IMG/VR virus record: IMGVR_UViG_3300007734_000737
Span: 1 to 61,134 of that record
Reading direction: 5' to 3' (one strand)
Length of the DNA: 61,134 nucleotides
DNA from: a virus
Of the stretch, positions 29,680-61,134 are shown in pieces. The notes beneath the pieces were generated by a model. The model did not search any database and had not been told where the DNA came from. It saw only the letters and a program-made list of their open reading frames with translations. Both the position numbers and the translations under genes were made by a program. The stretch's first letter is position 1; the number at the start of each line of letters is the position of its first letter.

Positions 29680-32600
29680 ATGTCAAATAGTACATTATCA
29701 TTTGCGTCATCATCATCATTTAGAGATATTTTAATGGCTAAAAATTTGGCCCCCTATAATGTTGCCGGAGTATATTCACCACCTGTTAGTAATTTAACTT
29801 ATGAAACGGTTTTAAATGTTTCAAATGTGATAGATTCACCAAATGAATTAATTGCTAATGACCCATTTGCAAATCAATTATACCCATTAAATGAATACGG
29901 ACCTAACGGAGGGTATGATTTAAATATAAATTACAATAATCCCCCACTTCCGGTTAATTCAAATCAAGGTGAGTATTCTCCTAATGATACTGTATTGGAT
30001 ATTGTTAACGAGTTTTTTATTGATGCGGCTTATATAGATAATTACTATGGTCCTGTTGGAGGGTTTAATGATATGTATGGGGTTACTACTACAATATTAG
30101 GACAACCAATACATCAACCTTATTTACCGACAAATTTTATACCGTCAAAATATTCCCCATATGCTATTTTATTGTCTACAAATCCAACGGGTAGTGATGG
30201 TTCATTATCTCAGGATTCCTATTTAGCAAGATTAGGAGCAACATATTTAAATCAGTTATTTCAAGATAGAATTAACAGAGAAATTTTTATTAACACTGTT
30301 GGACAAGTTAATTTACAATCATTACAAGACCCTTTTGAGGCTAGTTTAATTGTAACCGGACAAGAACCTTTAATTTATAAAAATTGGAAGATTACGTCAC
30401 CGGAAAACCCTATTGCGGCAGCGGCTGACTTAATTACAAGATTAGGTGGAGCGTATTGGCCCGTTTCTTTAATCCCTGGTGATTATTTTACTGACAATAC
30501 AAGAAATGGTCAAACACAACAAACCTCAAATGCGTTAAATGTTGTTAATCAATTAACCGGTGGTTTTTTAGGTCCTATATTAAATAGTAAAAGAAATCCT
30601 TCTGAAATATTTTTAGCAAACACTGGTAACGGACAAAGGTCAGTATTATTTAAAAATATTAATTATAACCGTTACCAACCAAACTATAAAAAAGATTATG
30701 GTGGGTTATTGGGTATTGGACAAGCAATTGTTGGTTTAATAAACCCTGATAATGGAACTTTAGTTGGTGGTTATTATGTTGGTAGTAGAAATGCGGAACC
30801 ATCAACAATAACTTCACCTCCAAATCAAGTTCCTGTTAATGCCTTTGGACAACAAGAACAAGTTCCGGTATATGGGCCATCTGAGATGGGTATTTTATTT
30901 GAGGGTAACCAAGATACTCTTAAATTTGGTTTAGCAGCAAAACCATTAAGTGATGGTGGTGGTATTGATGGTCAATTTGTTTGGACATCACCAAAATATA
31001 AACCAAATGCTGGTTTTCACGCAACTCCGGGTGGTGGTTCAGGTTCGGCTGATGGAGAATATAATTTAATTAGTGGTAACTATACTCGTGATGAATCAAC
31101 TAATTTTACCTTTAAAAAAACATCTATTTTAGATGAAACGCAAAGATTAGTTAATTCTGCGGATAATGTTCAAGGTATCTCAAGATTAAAACACGTTGGT
31201 AATGCTATTAACCAAGTTAGTAAAGTATTTCACGATGGATATAAAGAAATGACTAAAGGTTCCCAAGTTGTATCTTATACTGACCAAACAACAGGTGGTG
31301 AAGCGGGTATTGAATATTGCAGAGTTTTTACTAAAGATACACCATACTACACTTATAATGATTTACAAAAAACTGATGGTATAACAACAAGTGGAAGACA
31401 ATATGCGGGTTCAGTTTTTGATAATACATTTAATTTAAACATTTCACCAACAAGAAATCCGGGGTCAACAAATATTATTGCTGACGGTCCAAACGGAATT
31501 GGTGGGTATGCTAAAAAATATATGTTCTCAATTGAGAATTTGGCTTGGAGAACATCAAGTAAGCAAGGATTTACTTATGATGAATTACCTGTTTGTGAGA
31601 AAGGTCCAAATGGGGGTAGAGTTATGTGGTTTCCACCATATGATATTAAATTCACCGATAATAGTAATGCTAACTGGTCTGAAACTTCATTTTTAGGTAG
31701 ACCGGAACCAATTTATACATATAAAGATACTCGAAGAATTGGAACATTAAGTTGGAAAATAATTGTTGACCATCCATCGGTTATGAATGTTCTTGTTGAA
31801 AAACAATTGAAAGGTCAAAACAAAGAGAGAATAAATTCAATAATTGATTCATTTTTTGCGGGTTGTGTTAAGTATGATATCTATGAATTGGCTAAAAAGT
31901 TTAATACGGTTCCGACTAAAGATTTATATACTTACCAACAAATATTAAATAATCCTAATTTAGATAGTAATACTGCAAAGGCTGTTATTAATAGTTTGCC
32001 AAGAAATGCAACAGTTGCAACTGAAACTAGTCCTGGTAATTCATCGGATAAACAAAATCCTGATTTATCGGTTGCACATTTGTTAGATAGCTATATAAAT
32101 TTAGGTTTTTATTTTGATAATGATATTCCGGGCCCACACACTAAAAAAGACCCAATTCCCAACTCAACATATAAATCGGATTATGATGCTTATACAAGTA
32201 GTAGTAATCAAGACACATATGTTGATAAATCAAGTAAATTATTTGCGGCAAAAAACCCAAATCTTAATGTTAAACCATTTTTTAGTAATGTTGTTGTAGA
32301 TAATTTTAATAAAATTAATACTGGTTTTATTGAGGATGCTTTTAAAATTTTAAGTGAAAATAAAGGTATTATTAAAATATCTTTAGCTAGTTCTGCTTCA
32401 GCGCCAGCACAAGATGACTACAATGTTACATTATCAGTTAGAAGAAAAAATTCTGTGATAGAGTATTTAAAAACAACTAAATTAAAACCTTTTATTACCG
32501 AAAAAAAGACATTAATTTTTGAAGGTAATACGACTAATGGTGAAATTGAAACAATTTCATTTCCAAAAACTGCGGATGGGGTTTTTGGTTCATCGGTTGA

Positions 32601-34616: not shown

Positions 34617-34943
34617 ATGAATAATAGACAAAATTATAATAGATATAATCAATTTTTATTAAATGGGGAACAAAGCGTTGTCCCATACATTTCTATTTCA
34701 AGTAAATCGTCAGATAAAAGGTATATTTACAAAGTTGGGCAATCTAGATTGGATAAAATATCACAACAATACTATGGAACCCCAACATTTGGATGGTTAA
34801 TATTGGCCGCTAATCCAATATTTGGTGGGAATGAATGGTCTATACCGGATGCGGCTATATTGACAATCCCATTTCCATTAGTATCATCTTTACAAGAATA
34901 TAAATCTCAATTAGACAATCATTTCTATTATTATGGTAGATAA
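34617..34943 (+). CDS. 53: Baseplate wedge protein with LysM-like domain (T4 gp53-type)
   Basis: A 108-residue protein with a LysM-like core, starting at RYIYKVGQSRLDKISQQYYG. It is followed by WLILAANPIFGGNEWSIPD and AAILTIPFP. The YKV-x-RLDKISQQYYG…NP…WSIPDGA-type pattern is that of gp53-like baseplate proteins, which are longer in T4 (196). It lies between the 1644- and 2128-residue baseplate genes and overlaps the latter's start by 11 bases. The LysM-like fold here serves protein-protein contacts in the baseplate, or possibly glycan contact. Confidence 0.65.
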   Translation: MNNRQNYNRYNQFLLNGEQSVVPYISISSKSSDKRYIYKVGQSRLDKISQQYYGTPTFGWLILAANPIFGGNEWSIPDAAILTIPFPLVSSLQEYKSQLDNHFYYYGR

Positions 34944-37900
34944 AACCGAAAATATATTAGTCGAATTCGACTACAACAACATAACAATTATTGACCCAAA
35001 CAAAGTTGTTGATAGTGATAATAAAGTAAGGGATAGGAATGTTAGACAAGAGGACTTGGTAATGTATGCCAATCTTGAGTGTAGTGTATTACCAAGAACT
35101 AAACTTGCTATTGGTACGGCAAACAATGATTCTATTAGAACTATATCAATTGCTAAAATTAACTTTTTAAAACCGGGTGATAAGGCTTATTTAGATAATT
35201 CTTATACTGATGAGTTAACCGGTAAAGATGCTATAAAAGGTGAAGGGGTTAATCAACCCACATTTAATAGTGTTGTTAATCCTAATAATAGTGATGACTT
35301 TTATCTTAAACAAACTATTAGTTCAGGAGGTAAACAGGGTTCCACAGACAATGGACTATTAGGTATTACCTCAATTAACATTAGACAAGGATTAGATTTT
35401 TTACCAACAATTGATATTAGATTAGTTGATGTTAAAGGTCGTGCATTATTTGAGGCGGGGGATAATTCTCCTTACGCGGCATTTTTTAATTTACCATATC
35501 CATTATTTCATTTAACAATTAAAGGTTATTTTGGTAAAGCGGTTAGATTAGGGTTAATGTTACAAAATTTTACAACCACATATAACGCGGAGACGGCTAA
35601 TTTTACAGTTGATTTAAAATTCTATACATACAAATATACTGTGTTAAGTGATGTGACAATGGCGGCTCTTTTAGCCACCCCACATATGTATCAATCAAGA
35701 TTTAATATTAGTCAAACTAGTGGTGGTCCAAGTAAAACAACAAAAACAGATAGTGTAGTTATTGAACGAGGTTATCAGAAAATAAGAGAAATGTATAGTG
35801 AATATAAATCTAAAGGTTTAATTCCAAATGATTTCCCGGAAATTACATTAATGCAATTAAAAGATAAACTTGAGAATTTTATAAAAGATATTCTTGATTC
35901 ATTTATCCAACAAAATTTAGACCCTTTAACTAATTTAGACACTTATAATAGTCAATTAATGGATTATCAGAAAGAAGTGTTTTACACCTTAAAAGTTTCT
36001 TGGTTTAATGAATTTATGGATAATGAAAATTATTACATTAAAAATAAAACAGGTCAAAAAATATACACATTTAAGAAAAATTTAGATGCTCAAAAGAAAA
36101 ATGATGCAATATCTAAATTAAAAGGGTTAATTTCTAAATATAATACCTTACTTAATAATAATGCTACTTGTGGTAATGTTAATGGTAAGGGTAGTTATAC
36201 GATTAATGGTAAAGTTGTTAAATGTTCAATACCTAATAGTATAACATATGAAAATGTTTTTCCAATAAATATCACATCTGACGATATTGATTTAACTGAA
36301 ACTTATAAATTACAAAGAAAAAATAGTCAATCTACACCGGAAGATTTGGTAAAATTTAAAGGTGAGTTAGACAATCAAAAATTGTTTGAAAATACGACGG
36401 TAACACTTAAAAATGGAGCTAAACAAGTTGTGTCTAATTACTTTGTATTTGAAGGTACCAATTCATTTATTGATTTAATTGATAGAATGGGTAAAGATTT
36501 AAAAACTAAAAGAAATGAAATTGAAGATGCTTTAACTAAAGCACTTGCTGAATTATTAGAAAATAAAGAAAATGGTATTGGATTTGTTCCAACTATGAGA
36601 AATGTCTTGGCCGTTGTTTTTGCAAATGGTGAAGCGTTCTTACGTTTATTAGATGAGGTTCATACCAAGGCTTGGGAACAAAGAGATAGTAAAATTAGAA
36701 AGGGTGTAATTTTTAATCAACAAATTGCTAACGCAAGTGCGGATAATAAAAGTTCCGGTGATGATAAAAATCAACCGGTATATCCTTGGCCTCAAGTTAT
36801 TAAAGAAACTCCGGGTGAAAAAGGACAAGAAAAATATGAATTAAGATATCCTGGTGATAGTGATATTATTGGTGAAACAAAAGGTTACTTATATGATGTT
36901 TGGCCTGAGATTGAGTTTGTTGAAGAATTTATCAATGGGATGACTCAAAAAACACCGCCACCACCCCCATTAACAAAAATATCAAATTCAGTAACAGAAC
37001 CAAATAGAGTGTCTTTAGGGGCAATTGAGTTTCCTGCTAAAAACGAGATTTTTGAAAATAAAGTTGTTAGTAAATACCTTTATGAAGTATATGAAAGAAC
37101 ATTATTAACTTCTCATTATTCAAAATTAGACAGGTCAAATAATTTAACCTCAGATGCTGATAAAGTTTCAAACGTTATTAGTGAAGGGGAATCTATTAAT
37201 ATTACTAATAGTTTGTCAGATAACAGTGATGTTGAATTAATTAAAACTTTAAAAACATATAACTTAAGTTCTGCTAATTTTGAAAATGTATTAAAACATA
37301 TATCAAATGAGGGAGTTTCTATGAGTTGGCAAAATTATATACGAGGAATTTTTAACACTGGTTATATTAAAAACACAGTTGAAAACGCACCGTTTAAATT
37401 TATTAGTAAAAAAGAAATTGATTCATCGTTATCCCAACCATTAGTTTCATTAAATAATGAAGCTGACATAGTTAATTATATTTCAACATCAACAACTTCT
37501 AATAAATATGATTTTACCGATACATATCCATTTACTGATAAAACTTGGGTAAAGAATAATTTAGCTAATGGAATTTCAACTGATGAGTTATTGGCTTTTA
37601 ACACAACTAAAACATTATTGTATAATTCAACTAAAAAAGTTGTTTCAAATTTTAGTGATGGTCAATCTCAAGATATTAAAAAACCAATTACTAATTTTGT
37701 TTATAAAAATATTGTAACGCCAACAATTATTGATAATGATTTACGAAATTTTTATGCAAGTAGAACATATACTAATCAATTACCTACAGAAGGGGATGTT
37801 AAGTATTTAAATTATAGTGGTCTTGTTAGTAATTATCAAACAACATCAATTTTAAATACACCATATTTTATAAACGCAATTCAAGAAGGTGTTGAAAATT

Positions 37901-40900
37901 CTAAAAATGGTGTTACTAATCCTTATATTAGTGCTGCTTACTTGTTTATTAATAGCTTACCTTTATCAACATTAAGAGAAAAATATAAAAATTACACAGG
38001 TAATCAGTCAGTTTATTCAGATGAGAGTTTAGATTATATATTTGCCTCTATGAAGAAATTTGCGGCGGTTCATAAAGTTCCATATGCTTGGGTATTAAAA
38101 ATAGGTTCTATTTGGCATCGTTATAAAAAATATGTTAATACTAATGTTGATATTTTAGATAATTGTTGGAAAAATTTTGATTATGTTAAAAATTATGACC
38201 CGGTTAGTGGTAAACCATCAACAGTGTATAATTTTACAATTCCGGGTCAAGTTTCTGCAACGACAATGGTTTTAGAAACAACAAACATAATTCCAACATT
38301 CTCAATTCCAATGGGGGCAACTAACGTTCAAACAATAATTAATACAGGATTTTATCCTAAATTAATTAACGATTTTAATGTTTTTTATCAAGGATATAAT
38401 GTTTATACCGGTTATACAAGTGCGGACATTCAAAAAGGTTTTAATGACGGTATATTATTAAATTATGTACCTGAATCGGTTATAAATAATGTTATAGGTA
38501 CCACAACTGGAAATAGTAGAACAACTTCGGTGATTCCTTGGTCTGTTTCTATTGTTGCGGATTACGGTCAATATATTTATGTTTTACCTTCTCACGGGTC
38601 ATTAATTAACCAAACAAAAGATGAATGTTTTGATAAAACAAATAATTTAGTTTATCAAGTTTCAGGTAATACATCAATGTATAATGGGTCTGCTAGATTA
38701 TTTTGGTCAGCACCTAATTATGGGTATTTTGATAATAGTAAAGTGATTAAACCGGACCCTATTCGTTATTTAAAACAAGTTTGGAATGGACAAAGTGACC
38801 AAGAAAATTTCTCAATTAATGGAGTGTTGTCAGATTACACAAAAATGAGTGAAATATTTTCGGTTTTTGATAGAAACTCTTTAGATGAGTTTGAAAAAGA
38901 ATTTTTAAATTTTTCAATTTCAGTTTATGATTATGAGGTGGATACCGACCCTGTAATTACTAATACTCAAAAATCATTTAAAAATTTTCAATCATTGATG
39001 AGAAATATGATGAAAATAACTAATACATCAACAAATAATGAAGAATGGGTTAAAAATGTTCAAGAGAAACAATTAACAAATATTTCTAATATAATTTCTC
39101 AATTTTTAAATTATGACTATTATTTTAAATTAGGTAATCCTTCATCATTTAACAAACAATTATTCTATACTTTTACAAGTAATTATTCTATAGAAACAAA
39201 TAAATATTATATTGCAACACCGGTTACTTGGGATTATTATAATTATACTACACCAAATTCATTACCGTCAGGGACAACACAAAATAATTCAATCAGTAAT
39301 TATCCATTAGAGTGGAAAGCTTTAGAAACCTATGTTGGTTTTTCTGAAATACCCGAACTAACTTATAAAGATAGTGGTTCATATATTACAGATTTTTTCA
39401 TAGATTGTAATGTGGCGTTTGATGTGTATAATATTGAAAAATTGGCCCCAATAATTAAGATATATGCGACTCAAAAATTAAAAGACAAAACTTTAAATTA
39501 TAAAAAGTTTGTTAAATTAATGGATGGGTATTTAGAAAATTTAGATTCTTTTAATGATAGAATTATTAATAACACAATCCTTAAAATACAAAAAGCGTTA
39601 CCTAATGTTGATTTTACACCTCAAAAAAAACCTGAAACAGTTTTGGAGAGTAAACAAACAAAACTTGAATTGTGGGAATCATTTAAGGCGACTAATGATA
39701 AATGGATTTCGGGAACTGACTTTAAAGAAAAAACTTTATTTGAAGATATTTTATTGTTGGATAGGGCTAGTAGGGATGTTGGTAATTTGATTTTAGTTGA
39801 TGTTTCAAAATTAAAAGATAATTTAACAACAATTAATCCTGCTACAACAATGTTAGTATATGTTCAAACAATATTAGTTGAAAATAATTTTGTTGTGATG
39901 AATATACCGTCATATGTTAATTTTTACAATGTGCAAGACGCAGTTAAAAATCCGGAACCAAAACCTGAGGGGACTTTAGAATTTGCAAACACGTTATTTG
40001 GTACATTTATGAGTGTTGATTATAGAAATTCATCAGCAAAGATGGTTTGTTTTTACGCGGGAAAACCAAGCGAACAATTGGATTTAAAAGAGAATGTTGA
40101 TTATCGTTATAGAAATGATGCGTTTGATTTAAGACGTGTTGACAACCCATTAGTGGAAAATCAAATAGGTAAAAACGATTGGGATAAATCAAATAAAGTC
40201 GTTGGATTTAATGTTGATATTGGACCACAAAATCAATCAATATTTCAAGGGTTTAATGTTAGTCAAAATCCGGGATTAGCAACTGCGGAATCATTAGAGG
40301 TTTTAAATAAACTGGCTAATCAATCAAATAGTAGAAAGGAGTCAACTCAAAGTAACTCATTATATAATTTATATAAAAATAGAAGTTATACCTGTCAAGT
40401 TACTATGATGGGTAATGCTATGATACAACCTACAATGTATTTTAATTTGAGGTATGTTCCAATGTTTAGCGGACCTTATATGATACAGAGAGTAGACCAT
40501 TCAATATCACCAGGAAGTTTTCAAACAACTTTTGAAGGTATTAGACAACCAACAGCGTCTCTACCTAAAATTGATAATTATATTCAATCTCTTAAATCAA
40601 CATTATTACAAACAATTGTTGATAAAAATAAAAAAAATAAACAAGAGAAAGAAAAGGCTCTTAAACAGGCGACAACAAACACCGATATTATAAAACAAAC
40701 TAATAATAAAGTGGATGAAAATACAAAACAAGATGGGACAACTCAAAGTAATAGTCAAAATTGTAAACCTATAACTGCCAAACAAGATAAATACGGTAAG
40801 TTCACGATTACTAACGATAAATTGAGTTCTGGTGTGACATACAAAGAAGTTGTTGATTTAATATCCTCAAAAACAACAAATCAAAAATTACAATATTCGG

Positions 40901-41319
40901 TTTTTGCAACAATGTATATAAGGTCATCTCAAAGTGGTATGTTACAATCTCAATTTTATAATTTTAGTAATACAGATTTATTACAAGATTGGGGTCCATC
41001 GGTAGAACCTTTCTTTACTAGTAAAAAATATTATTGTAGTAATTCAAATACTCCGTATGTTACATTTAATAGTTTAAATCAAAATGTTGAATTTTTAATC
41101 TCAAGATATAAAGATAGAGTTGGGAAGATTAATAAAATAACGGCTAAAGACATTACTAAATTTATAATATTATATGGTGATGCTATTATTCCAAAAAATG
41201 AGGATGAATATACTACTATGAGTTCTACTAATATAACAACTATTGAGAGTAAAGTTCAAGAGGCTATAAACGTTTATAATCCAATAAGTGGTAATTATAG
41301 TAAAACACCAAATCAGTAA
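34933..41319 (+). CDS. Giant baseplate hub-like protein with a C-terminal hydrolase-like domain
   Basis: A 2128-residue protein. The N-terminal about 250 residues look like a baseplate hub domain (LGITSINIRQGLDFLPTIDI, then LPYPLFHLTIKGYFGKAV). At about residues 1818-1873 there is a late-control-D/gp27-like ending: YTCQVTMMGNAMIQP, then FNLRYVPMFSGPYMIQRVDH. After a Lys/Gln-rich linker, residues about 1945-2128 resemble glucosaminidase-type peptidoglycan hydrolases in outline (YSVFATMYIRSSQSG, then DLLQDWGP, KYYC, FNSLNQNVEFLISRYKDR). The usual catalytic Glu is not obvious. The middle about 1500 residues are unassigned. It would sit centrally in the baseplate and contact the cell wall during injection. 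Confidence 0.55.
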   Translation: MVDKTENILVEFDYNNITIIDPNKVVDSDNKVRDRNVRQEDLVMYANLECSVLPRTKLAIGTANNDSIRTISIAKINFLKPGDKAYLDNSYTDELTGKDAIKGEGVNQPTFNSVVNPNNSDDFYLKQTISSGGKQGSTDNGLLGITSINIRQGLDFLPTIDIRLVDVKGRALFEAGDNSPYAAFFNLPYPLFHLTIKGYFGKAVRLGLMLQNFTTTYNAETANFTVDLKFYTYKYTVLSDVTMAALLATPHMYQSRFNISQTSGGPSKTTKTDSVVIERGYQKIREMYSEYKSKGLIPNDFPEITLMQLKDKLENFIKDILDSFIQQNLDPLTNLDTYNSQLMDYQKEVFYTLKVSWFNEFMDNENYYIKNKTGQKIYTFKKNLDAQKKNDAISKLKGLISKYNTLLNNNATCGNVNGKGSYTINGKVVKCSIPNSITYENVFPINITSDDIDLTETYKLQRKNSQSTPEDLVKFKGELDNQKLFENTTVTLKNGAKQVVSNYFVFEGTNSFIDLIDRMGKDLKTKRNEIEDALTKALAELLENKENGIGFVPTMRNVLAVVFANGEAFLRLLDEVHTKAWEQRDSKIRKGVIFNQQIANASADNKSSGDDKNQPVYPWPQVIKETPGEKGQEKYELRYPGDSDIIGETKGYLYDVWPEIEFVEEFINGMTQKTPPPPPLTKISNSVTEPNRVSLGAIEFPAKNEIFENKVVSKYLYEVYERTLLTSHYSKLDRSNNLTSDADKVSNVISEGESINITNSLSDNSDVELIKTLKTYNLSSANFENVLKHISNEGVSMSWQNYIRGIFNTGYIKNTVENAPFKFISKKEIDSSLSQPLVSLNNEADIVNYISTSTTSNKYDFTDTYPFTDKTWVKNNLANGISTDELLAFNTTKTLLYNSTKKVVSNFSDGQSQDIKKPITNFVYKNIVTPTIIDNDLRNFYASRTYTNQLPTEGDVKYLNYSGLVSNYQTTSILNTPYFINAIQEGVENSKNGVTNPYISAAYLFINSLPLSTLREKYKNYTGNQSVYSDESLDYIFASMKKFAAVHKVPYAWVLKIGSIWHRYKKYVNTNVDILDNCWKNFDYVKNYDPVSGKPSTVYNFTIPGQVSATTMVLETTNIIPTFSIPMGATNVQTIINTGFYPKLINDFNVFYQGYNVYTGYTSADIQKGFNDGILLNYVPESVINNVIGTTTGNSRTTSVIPWSVSIVADYGQYIYVLPSHGSLINQTKDECFDKTNNLVYQVSGNTSMYNGSARLFWSAPNYGYFDNSKVIKPDPIRYLKQVWNGQSDQENFSINGVLSDYTKMSEIFSVFDRNSLDEFEKEFLNFSISVYDYEVDTDPVITNTQKSFKNFQSLMRNMMKITNTSTNNEEWVKNVQEKQLTNISNIISQFLNYDYYFKLGNPSSFNKQLFYTFTSNYSIETNKYYIATPVTWDYYNYTTPNSLPSGTTQNNSISNYPLEWKALETYVGFSEIPELTYKDSGSYITDFFIDCNVAFDVYNIEKLAPIIKIYATQKLKDKTLNYKKFVKLMDGYLENLDSFNDRIINNTILKIQKALPNVDFTPQKKPETVLESKQTKLELWESFKATNDKWISGTDFKEKTLFEDILLLDRASRDVGNLILVDVSKLKDNLTTINPATTMLVYVQTILVENNFVVMNIPSYVNFYNVQDAVKNPEPKPEGTLEFANTLFGTFMSVDYRNSSAKMVCFYAGKPSEQLDLKENVDYRYRNDAFDLRRVDNPLVENQIGKNDWDKSNKVVGFNVDIGPQNQSIFQGFNVSQNPGLATAESLEVLNKLANQSNSRKESTQSNSLYNLYKNRSYTCQVTMMGNAMIQPTMYFNLRYVPMFSGPYMIQRVDHSISPGSFQTTFEGIRQPTASLPKIDNYIQSLKSTLLQTIVDKNKKNKQEKEKALKQATTNTDIIKQTNNKVDENTKQDGTTQSNSQNCKPITAKQDKYGKFTITNDKLSSGVTYKEVVDLISSKTTNQKLQYSVFATMYIRSSQSGMLQSQFYNFSNTDLLQDWGPSVEPFFTSKKYYCSNSNTPYVTFNSLNQNVEFLISRYKDRVGKINKITAKDITKFIILYGDAIIPKNEDEYTTMSSTNITTIESKVQEAINVYNPISGNYSKTPNQ

Positions 41320-44295: not shown

Positions 44296-45069
44296 ATGGA
44301 AACTAAAGTTTGTTCTAAATGTAATGAAGAAAAAAAAGTTTGTGAATTTTATAAAGATAAACAAAAAAAAGATGGTTTAACATCTACTTGTAAAATTTGT
44401 AAAAACAATATTTTAAAAATCTATAAAGAACAAAATCCTGATAAAGTTAAAGAAAGTAAACAAAAGGAATATTTAAAAAATATTGAAAAGTATCGTAATC
44501 AGAATAAAAAATGGAAAAATGAAAATCCTGATTATATGATAAAATATTTGAAAAATTATTATGATGAAAATAAACAACAATTACTTGAAAAACAAAAAAA
44601 ATATTATGAATCTAATAAAAATAGTATTTTAAAAAAATGTCAAGAATATGTTAACAAAAATTGTGAAAAAACATCAAAAAATCAAAAAGAATATCGTGAT
44701 AAAAATAAAGAAAGATTACAAAAATACATTAATCAATATAGAAAAAAACGTAGACAAACCGATGTTATTTTTAATTTAAGGGAAAATCTTGGTCATAGGA
44801 CTAGACAAATTTTTAAACATTTTAACACAGAAAAAAAAGATAAAACTTTTGATATTGTGAGTTGTTCTCCGGAATTTCTTAAAAAACATTTAGAAAACCA
44901 ATTTATTGATGGTATGAGTTGGGAAAATAGGAGTGAATGGCATATTGACCACATCATTCCATTATCATCGGCGAAAACAAAAGACGAACTTTATAAGTTG
45001 TGTCATTATGAAAATCTTCAACCATTATGGGCGGAAGATAATTTGAAAAAAAGTAACAAAATTTTATAG
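44296..45069 (+). CDS. HNH endonuclease, homing type, paralogue of the one at 2723
   Basis: A 257-residue protein with the same plan as the endonuclease at 2723-3307: C6/C9 and C32/C35 zinc-ribbon pairs, then the HNH core SEWHIDHIIPLSSAKT (H216, D218, H219) and ENLQPLWAEDNL (about N240). The Lys/Asn/Tyr-rich linker between them is some 60 residues longer, with imperfect repeats such as YRDKNKERLQKY. It is wedged between uvsX and the 5' nuclease gene with a 2-base gap upstream. Its base composition is more A-rich than its neighbours. It is best read as a selfish insertion into the replication operon. Confidence 0.85.
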   Translation: METKVCSKCNEEKKVCEFYKDKQKKDGLTSTCKICKNNILKIYKEQNPDKVKESKQKEYLKNIEKYRNQNKKWKNENPDYMIKYLKNYYDENKQQLLEKQKKYYESNKNSILKKCQEYVNKNCEKTSKNQKEYRDKNKERLQKYINQYRKKRRQTDVIFNLRENLGHRTRQIFKHFNTEKKDKTFDIVSCSPEFLKKHLENQFIDGMSWENRSEWHIDHIIPLSSAKTKDELYKLCHYENLQPLWAEDNLKKSNKIL

Positions 45070-51377: not shown

Positions 51378-51386
51378 TTTTGGGGG

Positions 51387-51421
51387 TATTTATAAAAAAT
51401 AATGACGACACTATATTTATA
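51387..51421 (+). promoter_or_regulatory. Tandem TATTTATA motifs before the gp25-like gene
   Basis: TATTTATA occurs at 51387-51394 and again at 51414-51421, 27 bases apart. The second lies only 3 bases before the ATG at 51425, so the first is the likelier start signal for a transcript with a leader. Confidence 0.5.
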
Positions 51422-51424
51422 GTT

Positions 51425-51883
51425 ATGGCAGATGGAATTACATATGGTTTAACTTTTCCCTTCAGAGATTCTTTTGATGGGAAGTATTTAGATTTATCAG
51501 ATTATAATGACCAAGAAGTTAGGTCTAATTTAATACACCTTTTATTATCTAAAAAAGGTAGTAGATATTATTTACCGGATTTTGGTACAAGATTATATGA
51601 ATTTATTTTTGAACCTTTAGACGGTCCTACTTTTTCTGAAATAGATTCAGAAATAAGAGAGGCTGCGGGAGTATATCTACCTGGTATAAGAATTACTAAT
51701 ATTAGTATTACCGCGGCTTCTGATGGAGATGAAGACAAAGGTAGTTATATTAACGATAATGATGAAAGAGTATTTAGAGTACCAAATATGTCAAATAAAG
51801 AACATACCGCAAAAGTTAAAATTGATTATACCATCAATAATGATGTGTTTAATAGTAGTGACTTTGTAATTATTAATATATAA
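51425..51883 (+). CDS. 25: Baseplate wedge protein (T4 gp25-like)
   Basis: A 152-residue protein in the gp25 size class (T4: 132). It carries the family pattern: YGLTFPFRDSFDGKYLDL, then VRSNLIHLLLSKKGSRYYLPD, FGTRLYEFIFEPLD and DSEIREAAGVYLPGI. I start it at the ATG at 51425. A TTG further upstream (51380) would add 15 residues that overlap the promoter motifs and terminator. The protein joins the inner baseplate wedge to the sheath-contracting ring. It sits directly before the gp6-like gene, as in many contractile tails. Confidence 0.88.
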   Translation: MADGITYGLTFPFRDSFDGKYLDLSDYNDQEVRSNLIHLLLSKKGSRYYLPDFGTRLYEFIFEPLDGPTFSEIDSEIREAAGVYLPGIRITNISITAASDGDEDKGSYINDNDERVFRVPNMSNKEHTAKVKIDYTINNDVFNSSDFVIINI

Positions 51884-51887
51884 AATT

Positions 51888-53726
51888 ATGGCAAATAAGA
51901 AAATTTCCTATACAACAAGGGATTTCCAATCAATTAGAACGGAGTTAATTAACTTTACTAAAACATATTATCCTGATACAATCCAAAACTTTAATGATGC
52001 GTCAGTTTTCTCTGTATTGTTAGATTTAAATGCCGCGGTAACGGATAATTTACAATTTAATATTGATAGAAGTATCCAAGAAACTGTTCTCCAATTTGCG
52101 CAACAAAGGTCGTCAGTATTTAATATTGCAAAAACTTATGGATTAAAAGTTCCGGGGATGAGACCTTCAGTAGCTTTGGTTAATTTCTCAATAACTGTTC
52201 CTGCATATGGGGATAAAGAAGATTTAAGATATTGTGGGATATTACGAAGAGGTTCTCAAGTTAATGGTGCGGGACAAGTTTTTGAAACGGTTTATGATAT
52301 TGATTTTGCGTCACCTATTAATGCGGAAGGTTACCCAAATAGATTAAAAATACCTAATTTTGATTCTAACAATAAATTAATCAATTATACAATAACTAAA
52401 CAAGAAACTGTGGTTAATGGTACTACAAAAGTATTTAAAAAAGTTATAACACCAAATGATGTTAAACCATTTTATGAATTATTTTTACCAGATAAGAATG
52501 TATTAGGTGTGACTAGTGTTTTATTAAAAGATAGTACTCAATATACTAATATTCCATCAGTACAAGAGTTTTTAGGTTTGGATAATAGATGGTATGAAGT
52601 GGATTCATTAGCTGAAGATAGAGTGTTTGTTGAGGACCCTACAAAAGTATCGGATGCTCCGGGAATTAAAGTTGGTAAGTATATTCAAACAAGTACTAAA
52701 TTTATCACTGAATTTACACCTGAAGGGTTTTTAAAAGTTACATTTGGTGGTGGGTCACAATCTGCAGATGAACAACTAAGAGAGTTTGCAAGAAATGGGT
52801 ATCAATTGAATTTATACAAATATTCAAATAATTTAGCATTAGGTACCACATTAAAACCAAACACAACATTATTCATCCAATATAGAGTTGGTGGTGGTGT
52901 TGCTAGTAATATTGGGGTTAATGCGATTACTCAAATTGGTACAGTATCATTTTTTGTTAATGGACCTTCAGATAGTGTAAATACAACAGTGGTTAATTCA
53001 TTAAGATGTACGAATGTTACTGCGGCTATTGGTGGGGCAAGTTTTCCAACAACAGAGGAAGTTAGAAATTTAGTATCCTATAATTTTTCATCACAAAAAA
53101 GAGCTGTAACGGTAAATGACTATGAGTCAATTATTAGAACAATGCCATCTCAATTTGGTGCTCCGGCAAAGGTATCAATAACAGAAAATAATAATAAGAT
53201 AATCGTTCAGATGTTATCTTATGATGAAACAGGTAGATTAACTGAAGTAATATCAAATACATTAAAGAATAATGTTGCAAATTACTTATCAAACTATCGT
53301 ATGATAAATGATTATGTTTCAATACAAAGTGCTAATGTTATTGATTTAAGTTTTAATATTGATGTTGTGTTGGATGGTACCCAAAATCAAGGAACTGTGA
53401 TATCTCAAATAATCACAATTGTTTCTGATTATTTTGACCCAACAAATAGACAAATGGGTGAGAATGTTAATATTTCTGAATTAAGAAGATTGATACAGAG
53501 TGAAAACGGAGTAGTTTCGTTATCTGATATTCAAGTGTTTAATCAAGTTGGGGGTCAATATTCATCATCTCAAACATCTCAAAGATATTTAGATAATACT
53601 ACACATCAAATAGAATTGATTGACGATACTATTTTTGCTCAACCAAATCAAACTTATCAAATTAAATATTCAAACAAAGATATTAACATTAGAGTTAAAA
53701 ATTTAAAAACCGTTAACTTCTCTTGA
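51888..53726 (+). CDS. 6: Baseplate wedge protein (T4 gp6 / baseplate J-like)
   Basis: A 612-residue protein (T4 gp6: 660). The N-terminus has SYTTRDFQSIRTELINFTK and FNDASVFSVLLDLNAAVTDN, followed by IDRSIQETVLQFAQQRSSV. This is the typical start of the gp6/baseplate J family. The middle has VQYRVGGG-like text (FIQYRVGGGVASNIGVNAI) and VTVNDYESIIRTMPSQFG, the conserved J-type motif near the C-terminal half. It forms the ring that triggers sheath contraction with gp25. It is 4 bases after gp25 and 31 bases before the membrane hydrolase gene. Confidence 0.88.
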   Translation: MANKKISYTTRDFQSIRTELINFTKTYYPDTIQNFNDASVFSVLLDLNAAVTDNLQFNIDRSIQETVLQFAQQRSSVFNIAKTYGLKVPGMRPSVALVNFSITVPAYGDKEDLRYCGILRRGSQVNGAGQVFETVYDIDFASPINAEGYPNRLKIPNFDSNNKLINYTITKQETVVNGTTKVFKKVITPNDVKPFYELFLPDKNVLGVTSVLLKDSTQYTNIPSVQEFLGLDNRWYEVDSLAEDRVFVEDPTKVSDAPGIKVGKYIQTSTKFITEFTPEGFLKVTFGGGSQSADEQLREFARNGYQLNLYKYSNNLALGTTLKPNTTLFIQYRVGGGVASNIGVNAITQIGTVSFFVNGPSDSVNTTVVNSLRCTNVTAAIGGASFPTTEEVRNLVSYNFSSQKRAVTVNDYESIIRTMPSQFGAPAKVSITENNNKIIVQMLSYDETGRLTEVISNTLKNNVANYLSNYRMINDYVSIQSANVIDLSFNIDVVLDGTQNQGTVISQIITIVSDYFDPTNRQMGENVNISELRRLIQSENGVVSLSDIQVFNQVGGQYSSSQTSQRYLDNTTHQIELIDDTIFAQPNQTYQIKYSNKDINIRVKNLKTVNFS

Positions 53727-53757: not shown

Positions 53758-54669
53758 ATGGAGATATTATCTAATTTTCTTGAAATAATTAAAGGTAACA
53801 ATGGGACTTGGGCTCAGGCAATCTTCAACGGGTTAATTCTAAATATTAGATTTATTCTTGGGTTAGTTATTCTTATTTATTTTATTAAAAAATTAAATAA
53901 AATAAAATCATTTGAAACTTTTATAGTTTTTATTTCTTTTATTTTTATGTTTAGTGAATGTCGTTTATTCTATGATAGACGAAAATTGGAACTTTTACAT
54001 AATGAAGTTTCTTATTTTAACCAAAATACTGAAAATTTAATAATTGTAGTTCAAGGTGCTAATAACCCATTTAGCGATGCTATTGACTATAATAAAACAC
54101 AAGTTGATTTTACGAAATCCCGAGATATAGATGGATTAGGTTTAATTGAAAATAAATTAAGTAATCCAATAACTAAAGTGATTACTTATGTTGGAACTCA
54201 TAGTTATACATTAACTCCGGAAGATGTTTATGAAACTGTGTATTATTTTAGATTATTTAAACCTAAAGGTAAAATAATTTTAGTTGGTCATAGTGTTGGT
54301 GGTTACGGATTGACAGAAGTGTTAGATAAATTAAATGATAATAATGTTTCTGTTGATTTAGTGGTTTTCTTAGATAATGCTAATAAATTATACAATAATT
54401 TTGATTATAATGTTAAATCAAATGTTAAATATGTAATTAATTTTACATCACCAAAATGGGCTGACAATTTTTATTTCTTTACTAATGCGGGTGGAGTGGT
54501 TAGTAGATGTCAAAAAAATAATGTCACAGATATTCTTAATTTAGAAATCCCTAAAACAACTCATACTAGTATTGATAATAAAATACCAAATGATGTATCA
54601 AATATTATTTATGATTACTTAAAAAATAACTCTAATCCAATCAATTTTACCAAAAAATATAAGTTTTAA
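53758..54669 (+). CDS. Membrane-anchored alpha/beta hydrolase (lipase-like)
   Basis: A 303-residue protein. Two hydrophobic segments, about residues 24-43 and 51-66, form an N-terminal membrane hairpin. A globular domain then begins with the strand NLIIVVQGANNPF. The nucleophile elbow is LVGHSVGGYG (S179, GxSxG). A candidate acid is D206 in VVFLDNANK, and the His is H269 in TTHTS. This order is that of lipase/esterase-type alpha/beta hydrolases. The likely location is a host membrane, with the catalytic domain on either side. The gene is inserted between two baseplate genes, where a host-range, membrane-attack, lysis or superinfection-exclusion role can be imagined. The substrate is unknown. 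Confidence 0.7.
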   Translation: MEILSNFLEIIKGNNGTWAQAIFNGLILNIRFILGLVILIYFIKKLNKIKSFETFIVFISFIFMFSECRLFYDRRKLELLHNEVSYFNQNTENLIIVVQGANNPFSDAIDYNKTQVDFTKSRDIDGLGLIENKLSNPITKVITYVGTHSYTLTPEDVYETVYYFRLFKPKGKIILVGHSVGGYGLTEVLDKLNDNNVSVDLVVFLDNANKLYNNFDYNVKSNVKYVINFTSPKWADNFYFFTNAGGVVSRCQKNNVTDILNLEIPKTTHTSIDNKIPNDVSNIIYDYLKNNSNPINFTKKYKF

Positions 54670-54744: not shown

Positions 54745-57700
54745 ATGTCAAAGTCATATAGAGTAAGAACGAAAGTTGGTGTTGATACTTCTTTGAAGGT
54801 ATTAATTGAACAAGAATTCGAACATTTAGAAATTCTATCCTTAAAAATATTACAAAGCGATATCTATACAAGACAATGTGCCGATTATGGTGTCATAATA
54901 GGTCGTGTTAGTGTTAATAATGGATTTGGTATCCCAAATGCCAAAGTTTCTATCTTTATACCTATAGATAGTAAAGACCAAAGAAATCCAATAATTTCCG
55001 AATTATATCCATATAAATCATTACAAGATAATAATGATGACGGGTATAGATACAATTTATTACCATATGTTAAATCATACAGTGCTCACGTACCAACAGG
55101 GACTTTCTTCACTAGAACAGATGTTTTAACTAATCCGGTGTTAATTGAGGTTTATGATAAATATTATAAATATAATGCGGTAACAAATCAAAGTGGGGAT
55201 TATATGATTTTTGGAGTTCCGGTTGGTTCTCATACTATTGTAATGGATGTTGACTTATCAGACATAGGTGAATTTTCATTATCACCACAAGATTTAATTA
55301 GAATGGGGTTGGCAACAGAGGCTCAAGTTTCTGGTACCAATTTTAAATCTTCAAATAACTTACGAGAATTACCTCAAATTATTAATCTTAGTAAATCTAT
55401 TGAGGTGGAACCATTATGGGGACAACCTGAAATTTGTAACTTAGGTATTACAAGAACTGACTTTGATTTAAGTAGTGAGGCTAAAATTGATATTAGACCA
55501 ACATCTGTGTTTATGGGGTCAATAATTTCTGATACAGATGGGAATGCCTTAAAATCTAGTTGTAAACCAACAAATGACTCAGGTCATTTATGTAGTTTAA
55601 TTGCAGGTCCTGGTGAGATATTATCAATTAGGCAAACAATACGACAAGATGCTAATGGTTTACCTATCCTTGAAAATTTTAGTTTAGAGGCTGGAGGTAA
55701 AGTAATTGATGAAAATGGTACTTGGTTAATCGACGTACCAATGAATTTAGATTATTATACTACTAATGAATTTGGGGAGCAAGTAATATCTAACGACCCT
55801 GAAGTAGGTATACCAACTAAGGCAAAATATAGATTTAAAGTAAAGTGGGCTCAATCATCATCATTATCTGAGGTGACTAAACGAGCACATTTTTTAGTTC
55901 CAAATATTAGAGAGTATGCGGGTAATTTAGACGACTCGTATGCTTTTAGTGTTGATTGGAATGATTATGGGAGTACACAAATGATTCAAGATGCGATAAA
56001 TTGTGAGGATAAATTTTATTTAATGCAATACAATAAAGTTTACACAGTTTCTGAGTTTATATATAACCATACTTATGGTAGCGGTACTGAAAGATATATT
56101 GGTATTAAAAATATATTAGAACCGGCTTGTGAAAGTACTAATAATAAATTTCCAACTAATGACGCTAATTTTAGATTTGATATTCTCTACATAATTTTTA
56201 TGTTTTTCAGTATTATATTGACACCTGTATTTTGGGCTTTAATACTCATAATGCACATTTTATATTTTGTTGTGATTATATTGAGAAAGTATGTTATATA
56301 TGGGTTAATGACTTGGATTGGGTATATGATTCTTAATGAATTTATTTTAATTGTAGGTTCTATTCCATATGCTCTTGGACAAATTGCTGGACACATTGGA
56401 ATGATAATTGTTTATGGTATATTTTTAGCTCTATTAAATTGGATTTTAAATGAATTAAATAAATTAGATTTAAAAGGTATTAAAGTTCCTATTTTAACAT
56501 ATCCGGATTGTGGTATGTGTGATTGTAAACAAGGTGACCCAGTTAATGAAAATGCTAATGGTGATGGTCCTCCTAGAGATGAGCCACCTAAATTATCTCC
56601 TTGTGCAACAATTATTTCGGATAAAACACCGATTAATTCATTAAGTAGAGGTGGTTCAATTGTTCAATTAAGTACTTTTGCGGCATTTAAAGTTCCAACA
56701 TATAATTATGAATTTTCGCCTAATGGATTTGTTTCACTACAAAAAGTTATTTTTACAAATAACTTTGCTGGATATACCTACGATGGTCAATTTGGGTCTG
56801 CAACTATTGGAGCGCCTTATTTGCAATCTGAAGTCACTACAACGGGTGATGGGGGTAATACATCCTCAAAAAATTGGGATTGGTTTACAAATGGATTACC
56901 TATTGCTGATAGAATTAATTTATTTAATGTTAAGGCAAAATATTTTGATGGAAGTTCAAATAATCCTGGAGGTGGTGTTAATAGAATTTCTGTAAATTTT
57001 GAACCAATTTTACCCAATGTACATTATGACAATACTATTGTACTTTTGTGTGATAAGGCGTCACTAACAAAATTTGTTGCGGGAGAAATGATTACATTTC
57101 AAAATCCTACTTATAGTAAAGACCCAAATTTAACAAAAGGTATTAAAAATAAATTTGGTAATAGAGCGGTTACGGGTACAACTTTTACAGGTCAAACAAA
57201 AGTTCAATTAAATTATGCAAACCCTAATGGTAATGGTAATATACCAACACCAAATTATAATGTTAATTTATTTGCTGGTCAATATAGTGCTAAAACGACA
57301 ACAAATTTTCATAAATTCCCAATTGATATAGAATATTTCCAAGTTATTACCGGAATGACTTATAATCAATTTAATAGTAAATGTGTTAATCAATTACAAA
57401 ATTCATTAAATGTTAAGTATTTTAGAAATAAAACAACATTTTATCAGTTATATAATAATGAAAATGGTTTGCCAGCTAATGCTTCGGATAATGGTACCAT
57501 TGGTTATATTAATGGTATCTTAACATTTCCACCACCACTTGGTACAGTACCATCTGGTGTTGTATCGTTAGATTCTATGCAGTATGTTGCTAATTCAGGT
57601 GAAACTTGTGTTGTTATATTAAATAGAGGTGTTGACCCGTATTCTAGTAAAATTGACATTGAATATGGTTTAGGTAAACTTTTTGGTTATAATTCTGAAA

Positions 57701-60444
57701 GTATTATTAAGGTTAGAGGTGGTTATAGAATGAATATCCCTATTCAGGGTAGTTATAAAAATATTAGTCATAGTAGTGGTGAAAGAGCAACAATACAACC
57801 CACCGCTCCTTGGTCTCCATTATCAAGTGCTAGTACTCAAAATTATGTTGATGGTTTAACTTGGATTGGAGGGATTCAACCAACTGTAGGTGGTAATGTT
57901 AATAATGAAACTGGATATGCTAATCAACAATTATATTTTAACTCATTTTCTTATTGTGATAATCAAAGGGAAACTTGGGCTTTTGTAACGGGTTATACTA
58001 ATGGTTTAACAGCTTCAACATGGACTCAAAAAACATCAAGATTTTCAGGGTTTAATTCAAATTTAATTAGTTATTATTCTAATTTAGATAATCGTTCATT
58101 AATTTTTAAACCAAATTGTAATAATATACAACCATTAAATGGAACTACTGTAACTAATGATGATAATCCACCTACTGAAATAGTCCCACCATTAAGTTTT
58201 GGTGCCGCTTCAAATAATATTTTTGGAATAGGGATAAGTAATAATAATGGTTTTACTAAACAATTTGGATATACTTATTTGGCATATTTTTCTCGAAATG
58301 GAAATTGGCCATATCAATATGTATTTCAAAATTCTTACTACCCATTTATGAGGGATGAGGGTTTTTATTCTATAAATGTAAGAAATGAAGGGTATATTCC
58401 TAAAGAAATTGTTGAGGGAAGTTCAATGTTACATATGAAAATTGATACAATGCCGGGTACTCAAAACACGACACCTTATCTTATTAATATAGACTTGGGT
58501 CCTAGTTCTTGGCCCTACCATTATCAAAATTCATTTGTTAGTCTTTGGTATGGGCAACGGGCTAAAATTGAAACATATTATTACTCACCAATTTATAATA
58601 CAACGGGTAATACAATGAATTTCACTTTAGGTAGTGTGGGACCTTATGTATTTACAAATCAAGGACCGATGACAAATAACCAAATTGTTATGAGGGGTGA
58701 TAGATTACCTACAGGAACAGATGTTGAAGAGTATTGCTGTAATGGTCGTGTTTTACAAAAAAATCGTTTATTAACTATGTATTTAATTCCTGAAACAGGG
58801 ATAATTGGAATAAATTCTACTGCTGGTTCAACAGGAGGACAAGGTAATGGGTCATTAGATTATGTTAGGGAAGATTTGGCTCGGTCTCCAAACATAAATC
58901 AAGTTCTGAATACATTTACTTGTGAAGGTTCAGTTAATTTGGAGTGTTATGGGTGTGATAACTCAAATACAATAAATCGTAGTATATTATTAAAACAAAG
59001 AGGCGACCCTTGTTTAGAATATAATGGAGAAACTATATTTGAATATGGTTGTTATATTTTTATTACTACAGTTTTTGTATCTTTATTTAGAGACTGGGTG
59101 TTAATGTTTGAATTTATTGCTAGAAATATGGTAATGTTGGGTGCTTGTCGGAACGTGTTTTCACATAGATTTAATAATAATTGGGTGAATGGTACATTAT
59201 ATGCTTTCCCATTTAAAAATGAGGTTCAATATTTTACAGCACCAACAGATAATCCACCTAATTATCCGGTGTCTCGTTATTGTTTTGATAATATTATTTA
59301 TCACAATCCATCTAGAAGTTTTTATTATAGATGTTCACCATATGACCCTGGCTCGGGAAAATTTAGTAATGAATTAAGGTATCCTACTACTATGATGGAT
59401 TTAGGACCTCGTTCAGCGTTTTTACAAGAGTTGGTAATGTCAGACGAATATGATGGTTATTTGGTTAATAAGTTAGATAGTACAACATTTTCTCATGTTG
59501 ATGAAATTCTTAATTTATTTATTGTAAGTAGATTTATGAATAATACTTTTTTACAGAATCTATTAGGAGGTCTTAATATTTTTGCATATTTTCAAAATAG
59601 CCGAAAAGATACTAAGTGGTTGGTTGATGCTGATTATTCTCAAGTAATTTCTATTAGTTCTGAATTGGGTGTTTCACCGTTTCAAGCGTCTAATTATCCT
59701 GATTCGCCAACTTTAGTGGGGGCTAATGAAATGGCTGTTGGTATTAGTTATAAAATTGAAACACCTGGAACAACTAACTTTACATTGATAGGGTTTCCTA
59801 ATAATGCTTCAGGAACAAAATTTGTGCCAACAACAACATTTGCGACTTTAGGTGTTCCTGCGGGTAATGGAACGGCAAGGGTAGACCCTCAAATTCAAAA
59901 CCCAATTTTCTTTGATTGTGATAATGCTTTTGGAATATTCTTTTCATCTGATACTCAACTTAGAGATTATTTAACACCAAAAAGAACAATTATAAATCCG
60001 GTTGGAACAACCGCAAGTAATTGTACGTTTAGTAATTTTGCGGTTTATTCTCAAAAAGTTCCATTATCTCAATGGAAAATAGATGGTGGAACTAGTATTT
60101 TTGGAGGTGAGTCAAATGATTGGGATTATTCTAATATTTATTCGTCAAAATATCAATCTTTAGATAGGTTATTACCGGCTTCAAGATATTTTAGAACACA
60201 AAACCCGTCTCAAAATAACTTTCAAAAAGGTTATATATATGCGGTTACCGACGGTAATAGTTTACCGGCTCGTCAAAATAATTCAATTAGTGGTGATATT
60301 ATTTATTGGCAACAAAATAATCCTGACGTTAATTCAATCACTGTTGGGGCACCGTTTCATTTTTATTTTGGATTAAAGGCTGGTTCATCGGCATTTGATA
60401 GATTTAGAATGAAATGGATAAACACAAGTAATGTAGTAAATTAA
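54745..60444 (+). CDS. Giant baseplate/tail protein with an internal transmembrane bundle
   Basis: A 1899-residue protein. Residues 1 to about 470 carry Ig/carboxypeptidase-regulatory-like beta domains (YGVIIGRVSVNNGFGIPNAK, then VFMGSIISDTDGNALK). Residues about 478-572 are strongly hydrophobic with four or so helices (for example LYIIFMFFSIILTPVFWALI and YVIYGLMTWIGYMILNEFIL), followed by a Cys cluster, DCGMCDCK. The rest is a very long beta-rich region with repeated Gly/Asn-Thr strands. A second hydrophobic stretch lies at about 1433-1468. It follows gp6 in order, the place of T4 gp7, but I see no clear gp7 likeness. Membrane helices in a structural protein suggest insertion into the host envelope. 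Confidence 0.5.
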   Translation: MSKSYRVRTKVGVDTSLKVLIEQEFEHLEILSLKILQSDIYTRQCADYGVIIGRVSVNNGFGIPNAKVSIFIPIDSKDQRNPIISELYPYKSLQDNNDDGYRYNLLPYVKSYSAHVPTGTFFTRTDVLTNPVLIEVYDKYYKYNAVTNQSGDYMIFGVPVGSHTIVMDVDLSDIGEFSLSPQDLIRMGLATEAQVSGTNFKSSNNLRELPQIINLSKSIEVEPLWGQPEICNLGITRTDFDLSSEAKIDIRPTSVFMGSIISDTDGNALKSSCKPTNDSGHLCSLIAGPGEILSIRQTIRQDANGLPILENFSLEAGGKVIDENGTWLIDVPMNLDYYTTNEFGEQVISNDPEVGIPTKAKYRFKVKWAQSSSLSEVTKRAHFLVPNIREYAGNLDDSYAFSVDWNDYGSTQMIQDAINCEDKFYLMQYNKVYTVSEFIYNHTYGSGTERYIGIKNILEPACESTNNKFPTNDANFRFDILYIIFMFFSIILTPVFWALILIMHILYFVVIILRKYVIYGLMTWIGYMILNEFILIVGSIPYALGQIAGHIGMIIVYGIFLALLNWILNELNKLDLKGIKVPILTYPDCGMCDCKQGDPVNENANGDGPPRDEPPKLSPCATIISDKTPINSLSRGGSIVQLSTFAAFKVPTYNYEFSPNGFVSLQKVIFTNNFAGYTYDGQFGSATIGAPYLQSEVTTTGDGGNTSSKNWDWFTNGLPIADRINLFNVKAKYFDGSSNNPGGGVNRISVNFEPILPNVHYDNTIVLLCDKASLTKFVAGEMITFQNPTYSKDPNLTKGIKNKFGNRAVTGTTFTGQTKVQLNYANPNGNGNIPTPNYNVNLFAGQYSAKTTTNFHKFPIDIEYFQVITGMTYNQFNSKCVNQLQNSLNVKYFRNKTTFYQLYNNENGLPANASDNGTIGYINGILTFPPPLGTVPSGVVSLDSMQYVANSGETCVVILNRGVDPYSSKIDIEYGLGKLFGYNSESIIKVRGGYRMNIPIQGSYKNISHSSGERATIQPTAPWSPLSSASTQNYVDGLTWIGGIQPTVGGNVNNETGYANQQLYFNSFSYCDNQRETWAFVTGYTNGLTASTWTQKTSRFSGFNSNLISYYSNLDNRSLIFKPNCNNIQPLNGTTVTNDDNPPTEIVPPLSFGAASNNIFGIGISNNNGFTKQFGYTYLAYFSRNGNWPYQYVFQNSYYPFMRDEGFYSINVRNEGYIPKEIVEGSSMLHMKIDTMPGTQNTTPYLINIDLGPSSWPYHYQNSFVSLWYGQRAKIETYYYSPIYNTTGNTMNFTLGSVGPYVFTNQGPMTNNQIVMRGDRLPTGTDVEEYCCNGRVLQKNRLLTMYLIPETGIIGINSTAGSTGGQGNGSLDYVREDLARSPNINQVLNTFTCEGSVNLECYGCDNSNTINRSILLKQRGDPCLEYNGETIFEYGCYIFITTVFVSLFRDWVLMFEFIARNMVMLGACRNVFSHRFNNNWVNGTLYAFPFKNEVQYFTAPTDNPPNYPVSRYCFDNIIYHNPSRSFYYRCSPYDPGSGKFSNELRYPTTMMDLGPRSAFLQELVMSDEYDGYLVNKLDSTTFSHVDEILNLFIVSRFMNNTFLQNLLGGLNIFAYFQNSRKDTKWLVDADYSQVISISSELGVSPFQASNYPDSPTLVGANEMAVGISYKIETPGTTNFTLIGFPNNASGTKFVPTTTFATLGVPAGNGTARVDPQIQNPIFFDCDNAFGIFFSSDTQLRDYLTPKRTIINPVGTTASNCTFSNFAVYSQKVPLSQWKIDGGTSIFGGESNDWDYSNIYSSKYQSLDRLLPASRYFRTQNPSQNNFQKGYIYAVTDGNSLPARQNNSISGDIIYWQQNNPDVNSITVGAPFHFYFGLKAGSSAFDRFRMKWINTSNVVN

Positions 60445-60445
60445 G

Positions 60446-61134
60446 ATGGATGATATTAGAATAGTATTAGGCTCGTTAAGATATAAAACTGCGACAAACA
60501 CTGATTTATCAATACCGACACCATTAGTTCAAAATTCAAAAAATTTACAAGAATTTGATAGAAGTGTTGATGTTAATTTGGCTCAAGTTTTTGATGATGA
60601 AAGACAAAAATCTACAACATTTAGACCTGTTTGTAAGTTTCAACTATTGTTTAATAATTCTTATACTGGCTCAACAAATTATCCACCATTAGAGAACAAT
60701 TTATATTATATTAATGAAACTACCTTAACAATAGACCAATGTACTCTTAATCCAGATTCGGTATATTGGGAAGGATTTCCTCAGTACGATGAATTTGATT
60801 TTATTAGAAGTGATTATAATGTTTCAGGATATACTGTTCCAATACCATCAACAATTCCTGGTGGAATATCTTCTGTTCATATAGATTTTGTGGCAAAAAG
60901 TGCTTCTACATATAATTGGAATCATTTTGTTAGTTATCCATATAAAAATGTTAACAAGGTTATGACTTTTTATGATGCGGTAGGTACTAACACACCTTCG
61001 TTAACTTGGAATGCTGTAGATGGAATTCCATTTTTTGTTAAAATTGATGATAGTACCGTGGCTAGTATTGCTAATAATATAACACCAAATCCTTTGTTAG
61101 AAGGTGGTAATCATATTATTCAATTTAAATGTCC
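60446..61134 (+). CDS. Probable baseplate/tail protein, C-terminus cut by the window
   Basis: The frame starts at ATG 60446, 1 base after the preceding stop. It stays open to the end of the window for 229 codons. It begins MDDIRIVLGSLRYKTATNTD and contains FDDERQKSTTFRPVCKFQLL, then a beta-rich, Tyr/Asn-rich stretch. No family is recognised. It is co-oriented and nearly contiguous with the giant protein before it, so it should be part of the same baseplate unit. A tail-appendage or wedge component is the likeliest role. Confidence 0.55.
   Translation, partial: MDDIRIVLGSLRYKTATNTDLSIPTPLVQNSKNLQEFDRSVDVNLAQVFDDERQKSTTFRPVCKFQLLFNNSYTGSTNYPPLENNLYYINETTLTIDQCTLNPDSVYWEGFPQYDEFDFIRSDYNVSGYTVPIPSTIPGGISSVHIDFVAKSASTYNWNHFVSYPYKNVNKVMTFYDAVGTNTPSLTWNAVDGIPFFVKIDDSTVASIANNITPNPLLEGGNHIIQFKC

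Follow-up and report, generated by a model that had tools for sequence, protein, structure and literature searches.

Protein X, encoded at positions 54745..60444 (+ strand; an ORF of 1,899 amino acids) directly 3' of gp25- and gp6-type baseplate genes, is a previously undescribed giant protein of large lake phages, and it contains the most strongly membrane-like segment of any large ORF that we examined. The reading that fits best, and to which we give a little less than half of our confidence, is that the hydrophobic helices of X, as a baseplate wedge-slot protein, act as a membrane-contacting clamp or anchor. The window analyzed here is the whole 61,134-nucleotide stretch of a virus record (IMGVR_UViG_3300007734_000737).

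Kyte-Doolittle (KD) and Wimley-White (WW) scans of X revealed a single dominant hydrophobic block at amino acids (aa) 473-574, whose best 19-mers reach a KD of 2.85 and a WW value of -18. An earlier note on this DNA had pointed to such a block at 56178-56466, corresponding to aa 478-574; the block is real, as both the scans and the shuffles agree (95-residue mean KD of 1.68 in X versus a maximum of 1.20 over 1,000 shuffles of X). Based on the scans and the mean KD of homologues, we delimited it to aa 476-575 (56170..56469, +). Among the large ORFs of the window, only X and a hydrolase (53758-54669) contain a TM-like 19-mer. On a Hessa-type scale with approximate values, X has a median insertion sum of -3.37, and in ten related loci not one of the 119 other ORFs of 200 aa or more gave a negative sum.

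The hydrophobic character of this region is conserved in the family. Over 79 homologues, the mean KD of the block is 1.53, compared with about -0.1 to -0.6 in control regions of like divergence. Its second half shows only 22% identity, yet retains a mean KD of 1.23, whereas equally divergent control regions are negative. The homologue search proposed in the earlier note showed a TM-like segment at the same position in 161 of 164 complete relatives of X, a count in which L133 was treated as a fragment and in which some loci overlap or are near-identical, so that not all counts are independent. As expected for a membrane protein, X has segments whose hydrophobicity and length would suffice for crossing a bilayer. 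However, a consistent family topology was not observed: hydrophobic length ranges from ~24 to ~105 residues, forming one to several helices, and three relatives have none.

To place the block within X, we compared the protein with its shorter relatives. The N-terminal core (aa 1-473; 54745..56163, +) is beta-rich and shows the highest conservation in X; in an AlphaFold2 (AF2) model, aa 45-430 are beta-rich with pLDDT mostly 70-93. It includes a carboxypeptidase-regulatory/transthyretin-like domain at ~aa 50-170, for which the PF13620 match is weak but present in 7/7 diverse members. Pieces of the C-terminal core (aa 1476-1899; 59170..60441, +) recur in L141 and in the compact L140 and L148, and this core ends in a conserved FHFYFGLKxGxxAFDRF motif. 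Between them is the insertion (aa 474-1475; 56164..59169, +), flanked by the core anchors FPxN(D/R) at aa ~469-473 and FxNxWVNGxLYA at aa 1476-1487. The spacing between these anchors is ~15 aa in L148 (where they read FPYN and FYNDWINGSLY), ~60 aa in L140, 67 aa in L146, whose insert carries one hydrophobic helix, and ~1003 aa in X of the window. The compact relatives L140, L142, and L148 (728-770 aa) have no TM-like segment, and the same core is clearly kept at both ends in block-free L140 and L148. Because compact relatives without the block retain the core, the block can be considered to open an insertion within a smaller soluble core. As judged from these comparisons, the block, a Cys motif, a beta region of ~830 aa, and a helix at aa 1430-1469 are one insertion at one core site; its hydrophobic part is near-universal in the family, which the large beta region is not.

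The AF2 model of aa 1-640 (83 aligned homologues, pLDDT 70.7) predicted a long helix at aa 480-539 (56182..56361, +) and a second hydrophobic, sequence-divergent helix at aa 544-572 (56374..56460, +), with low-confidence linkers on either side. For aa 480-513, the family-averaged hydrophobicity repeats most strongly at 100 degrees (permutation P < 0.0005), as it does in a distant subfamily (n = 9). The helix phases before and after Pro494 agree within ~28 degrees at 100 degrees, an agreement that is sensitive to the assumed angle. A narrow polar stripe runs along this helix (D479, Y482, M486, S489, T493, W497, H504, Y507, I511, and R514); His504 is invariant (n = 80 sequences), and homologues carry T, R, or K at position 493. 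Charged residues in aa 481-512 are absent in 42/80 homologues and number at most two in 79/80. Conservation within the block has no helical moment of the kind that would point to a buried face (P = 0.59). Thus, aa 480-513 reads as one long continuous helix through Pro494 in the model and the periodicity analysis, rather than a TM hairpin. The earlier note had described roughly four helices; that four-TM-helix reading was dropped, as AF2 gives two long helices and aa 480-513 a single continuous polar stripe. A match of the block to an ABC transporter (E = 0.14) was discarded as a chance effect of hydrophobicity.

Behind the helices lies a PxLTYPDCxxCxCK motif (aa 582-595; 56488..56529, +), identified by homologue conservation, in which C589 and C592 are 100% conserved and C594 and P582 97%; the DCGMCDCK previously noticed after the block is indeed present at aa 588-595. 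A second hydrophobic segment had been suggested at 1433-1468. Such a segment exists at the insert end (aa 1430-1469; 59032..59151, +; hydrophobic/amphipathic, KD ~1.6), but it is weaker than the block, with a family mean KD of 0.71. The AF2 model of aa 700-1899 (pLDDT 65.7) showed confident beta domains at ~aa 710-1350 and a helix at aa 1447-1469 (748-770 of the model). This helix can be assigned to the insert end because compact relatives, too, have a short helix-like stretch in front of the same anchor.

The genomic context of X points to the baseplate. Upstream are genes for a gp25-like baseplate protein (51380..51883, +; PF04965 GPW_gp25, 2.6e-08) and a T4 gp6-like baseplate wedge protein (51888..53726, +; PF04865, 2.3e-07; phrog_219, 1.9e-22; PDB gp6, 5e-4), and directly downstream is a conserved partner, d1 (60446..61132, +), which is truncated by the window end and has ~590-630 aa in relatives. 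In 213 of 219 loci, X is preceded by a gp6-like ORF at a distance of 27-1328 bp; none could be recognized at the remaining six. d1 adjoins X even in the distant relatives L140, L141, and L142, and the gene order gp25-gp6-X-d1 is kept even in distant L141. Elsewhere, the window encodes a tail sheath, a weakly gp19-like tube protein (PF06841, 5e-4), and a member of the T4 baseplate protein family PF12322. Because of the gp25/gp6/d1 synteny and these tail genes, X is a probable baseplate component; we infer that it is probably present in virions as a structural protein, and the synteny suggests that it occupies the wedge slot.

Several other ORFs of the window deserve mention. The ORF between gp6 and X (53758-54669) is alpha/beta-hydrolase-like with an N-terminal TM-like helix, and it is an optional insertion, because the gp6-X gap is only 27-150 bp in many relatives. 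Two large ORFs of the tail region, 29680-34614 (1,644 aa) and 34933-41319 (2,128 aa), had no convincing PHROG/Pfam match and no TM-like segment, and are candidates for tape measure or hub. The tail sheath protein (21705-25301) is unusually long (1,198 aa); only about its last 300 aa match PHROG sheath families, the remainder being extra. The adjoining ORFs 3542-6361 and 6377-8230 may be paralogous tail or fiber proteins, as both hit phrog_15511 (unknown function). In addition, ORFs 2723-3307 (-) and 44296-45069 (+), the latter endonuclease VII-like, begin with a near-identical Cys-rich motif (KICSKCKEEKDVCEFY and KVCSKCNEEKKVCEFY, respectively).

Relatives of X number in the hundreds in viral contigs: three partly overlapping scans gave at least 148, at least 554, and at least 542 confirmed stretches, with loci partly overlapping. 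No match was found in annotated phages by tblastn with X, its N-terminal part, or the distant L140 and L141, and searches of Pfam, PHROG, and PDB with X gave no convincing family match. A BFVD protein of Myoviridae sp. ctPuP5 (A0A8S5LA66) is homologous to the N-terminal part of X (40% identity, Foldseek E = 4e-44); it is uncharacterized. Ribosomal protein bS21 (PF01165, above cut-off) was present in 4/4 related contigs of 272-322 kb; the window's own genome is a 61-kb fragment. Freshwater Bacteroidota jumbo myophages with large genomes also encode bS21 (PMC9723584), and the related contigs match them in both genome size and S21. The baseplate genes of L140, L141, and L142 were found in metagenome-assembled genomes (MAGs) labeled Wolfebacteria, Mycoplasmatota, and Bacteroidota, and probably represent binned phage contigs or proviruses.

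Considering its gene neighborhood, we compared X with known tail proteins. Like T4 gp7, TssG, and Afp12/Pvc12/Cis12, X is large, follows a gp6-type wedge gene immediately, and is conserved in the gene run. In that family, each wedge combines one copy with two gp6. However, no similarity to gp7 or the wedge family was detected in PHROGs (21 X members) or PDB chain profiles. Foldseek searches with the moderate-confidence models of aa 1-640 (pLDDT 70.7) and 700-1899 (pLDDT 65.7) gave weak Ig/transthyretin-like or no significant matches, and no gp7-like protein was among the matches listed for either. Moreover, no hydrophobic insert is known in gp7. X was thus not filed as T4 gp7: its position fits, but the sequence profile tests fail and the moderate-confidence models have no gp7 among the listed fold matches. 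The crassvirus muzzle protein was also rejected, as the PDB chain profile search gave no such match. Three sister phages with a related gp6 (Flavobacterium phage immuto, Microcystis phage Mel-JY01, and LR756508) encode downstream of it a large protein that is unrelated to X by HMM and hhalign comparison, and no X is present at this locus.

Tail proteins with hydrophobic segments have been described in other systems. Some tail tape measure proteins, such as that of TP901-1, contain TM segments (PMC5099701); X resembles them as a tail-associated protein with hydrophobic segments, but it lies outside the tape-measure position and is beta-rich rather than coiled-coil, and the other large tail-region ORFs of the window lack TM-like segments. 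According to the earlier note, baseplate proteins are normally soluble, but exceptions have been published. In the thylakoid-anchored tCIS of the cyanobacterium Anabaena, Cis12, which has an extra domain and no predicted TM helix, and Cis13, a fiber-like trimer with a C-terminal TM helix, contact or cross the membrane (PMC8894136). In that system, baseplate or fiber parts join a contractile machine to a membrane; the hydrophobic helices of X, unlike these, lie in an internal insert.

In the preferred model, X would be a structural baseplate protein in the slot beside gp6, and its base would be a soluble, beta-rich core of ~730-770 aa. The insert in one core loop would start with long, very hydrophobic helices whose base is closed by the Cys cluster, and large members would add a beta-rich domain of ~830 aa. 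In the resting baseplate the helices would be covered or mutually packed; later they would be presented to the envelope, gripping the bilayer or sealing the baseplate to it, and would not serve as a DNA conduit. The analysis demonstrates the hydrophobicity, the conservation, the insertion architecture, the helix periodicity, and the synteny; we infer the contact itself, as well as which membrane is involved and when. Consistent with membrane contact, TM-grade hydrophobicity is found at the same place in 161/164 complete relatives, the second half of the block keeps its KD of 1.23 at 22% identity, and the near-absence of charged residues sets the stripe apart from a solvent-exposed one. X has no equal among the large ORFs of the tail region, the gp25-gp6-X-d1 synteny extends to distant L141, the block-free compact relatives show an insertion in a soluble scaffold, and the tCIS offers a precedent for membrane anchoring by baseplate or fiber extensions (PMC8894136). 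A more specific version, in which the clamp penetrates the membrane, and its long striped helices, with a metal-binding or disulfide Cys cluster closing them and the invariant His in mid-helix, are released on the baseplate transition to attach the tail to the bilayer as it contracts, appears rather doubtful.

On the other hand, a continuous helix of 34 to 60 residues is longer than required to cross a bilayer, hydrophobic segments of alpha-helical type are rarely seen in the Gram-negative outer membrane, and single-helix versions such as that of L146 cannot cross twice, as would be required if both core halves share one side. The polar stripe is also expected for a helix in a packed bundle. 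A serious rival, ranking next after the membrane clamp and possible though not probable, is that the helices are a permanent structural core, with several copies of X packed as an oligomeric bundle inside the baseplate and never meeting lipid. The predicted 60- and 29-residue helices are too long for simple TM hairpins; the strict 100-degree periodicity, the stripe with invariant His504, and the invariant Cys cluster at the base would suit such a bundle, in which varying helix number and length would be easier to tolerate. However, the block is more hydrophobic than the other large ORFs tested, its conservation has no helical moment for a buried face, and its stripe is almost without charged residues.

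It is also conceivable, but unlikely, that the block acts while baseplates are being assembled and not at infection, tethering X, and with it the nascent baseplates, to the inner membrane of the host. The first hydrophobic segment, preceded by 473 residues, may resemble a co-translational targeting signal, and tCIS baseplates are membrane-tethered (PMC8894136); yet block-free members retain the same core, L148 also having the gp6 neighbor, and single-helix forms do not suit a fixed polytopic topology. The earlier note suggested that contraction could let the block insert into the host envelope, where its several helices would form a DNA channel. Its membrane part is plausible, given a TM-grade, conserved segment in a baseplate gene run, and a pore could be lined by the stripe with His504; the small hydrolase is the one other tail-region ORF of the window with a TM-like segment. 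The four-helix channel itself is highly improbable. A fixed channel fits poorly with a block that has one helix in some relatives and several in others, that differs in helix length, and that three relatives lack altogether; moreover, aa 480-513 reads as one helix and no hairpin, and the wedge-type gene position, judged from gp25-gp6 synteny, would place X off the tube axis. That X is a membrane-bound, non-virion factor for host takeover or assembly, lying in the baseplate gene run by chance, would agree with the lack of convincing PHROG, Pfam, or PDB structural-protein matches, but is scarcely credible in view of the tight gp25-gp6-X-d1 order across very diverse contigs and of the size and beta-rich make-up of X, both typical of structural proteins.

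X as a core family now covers hundreds of uncharacterized large-phage contigs. How contractile phages stay attached to the envelope, and keep it sealed as the tube passes, is an open question. If the membrane-contacting clamp or anchor is correct, a very widespread conserved membrane-grade insert beside gp6 would make baseplate membrane engagement testable, and the block-free relatives would be natural controls for such tests.
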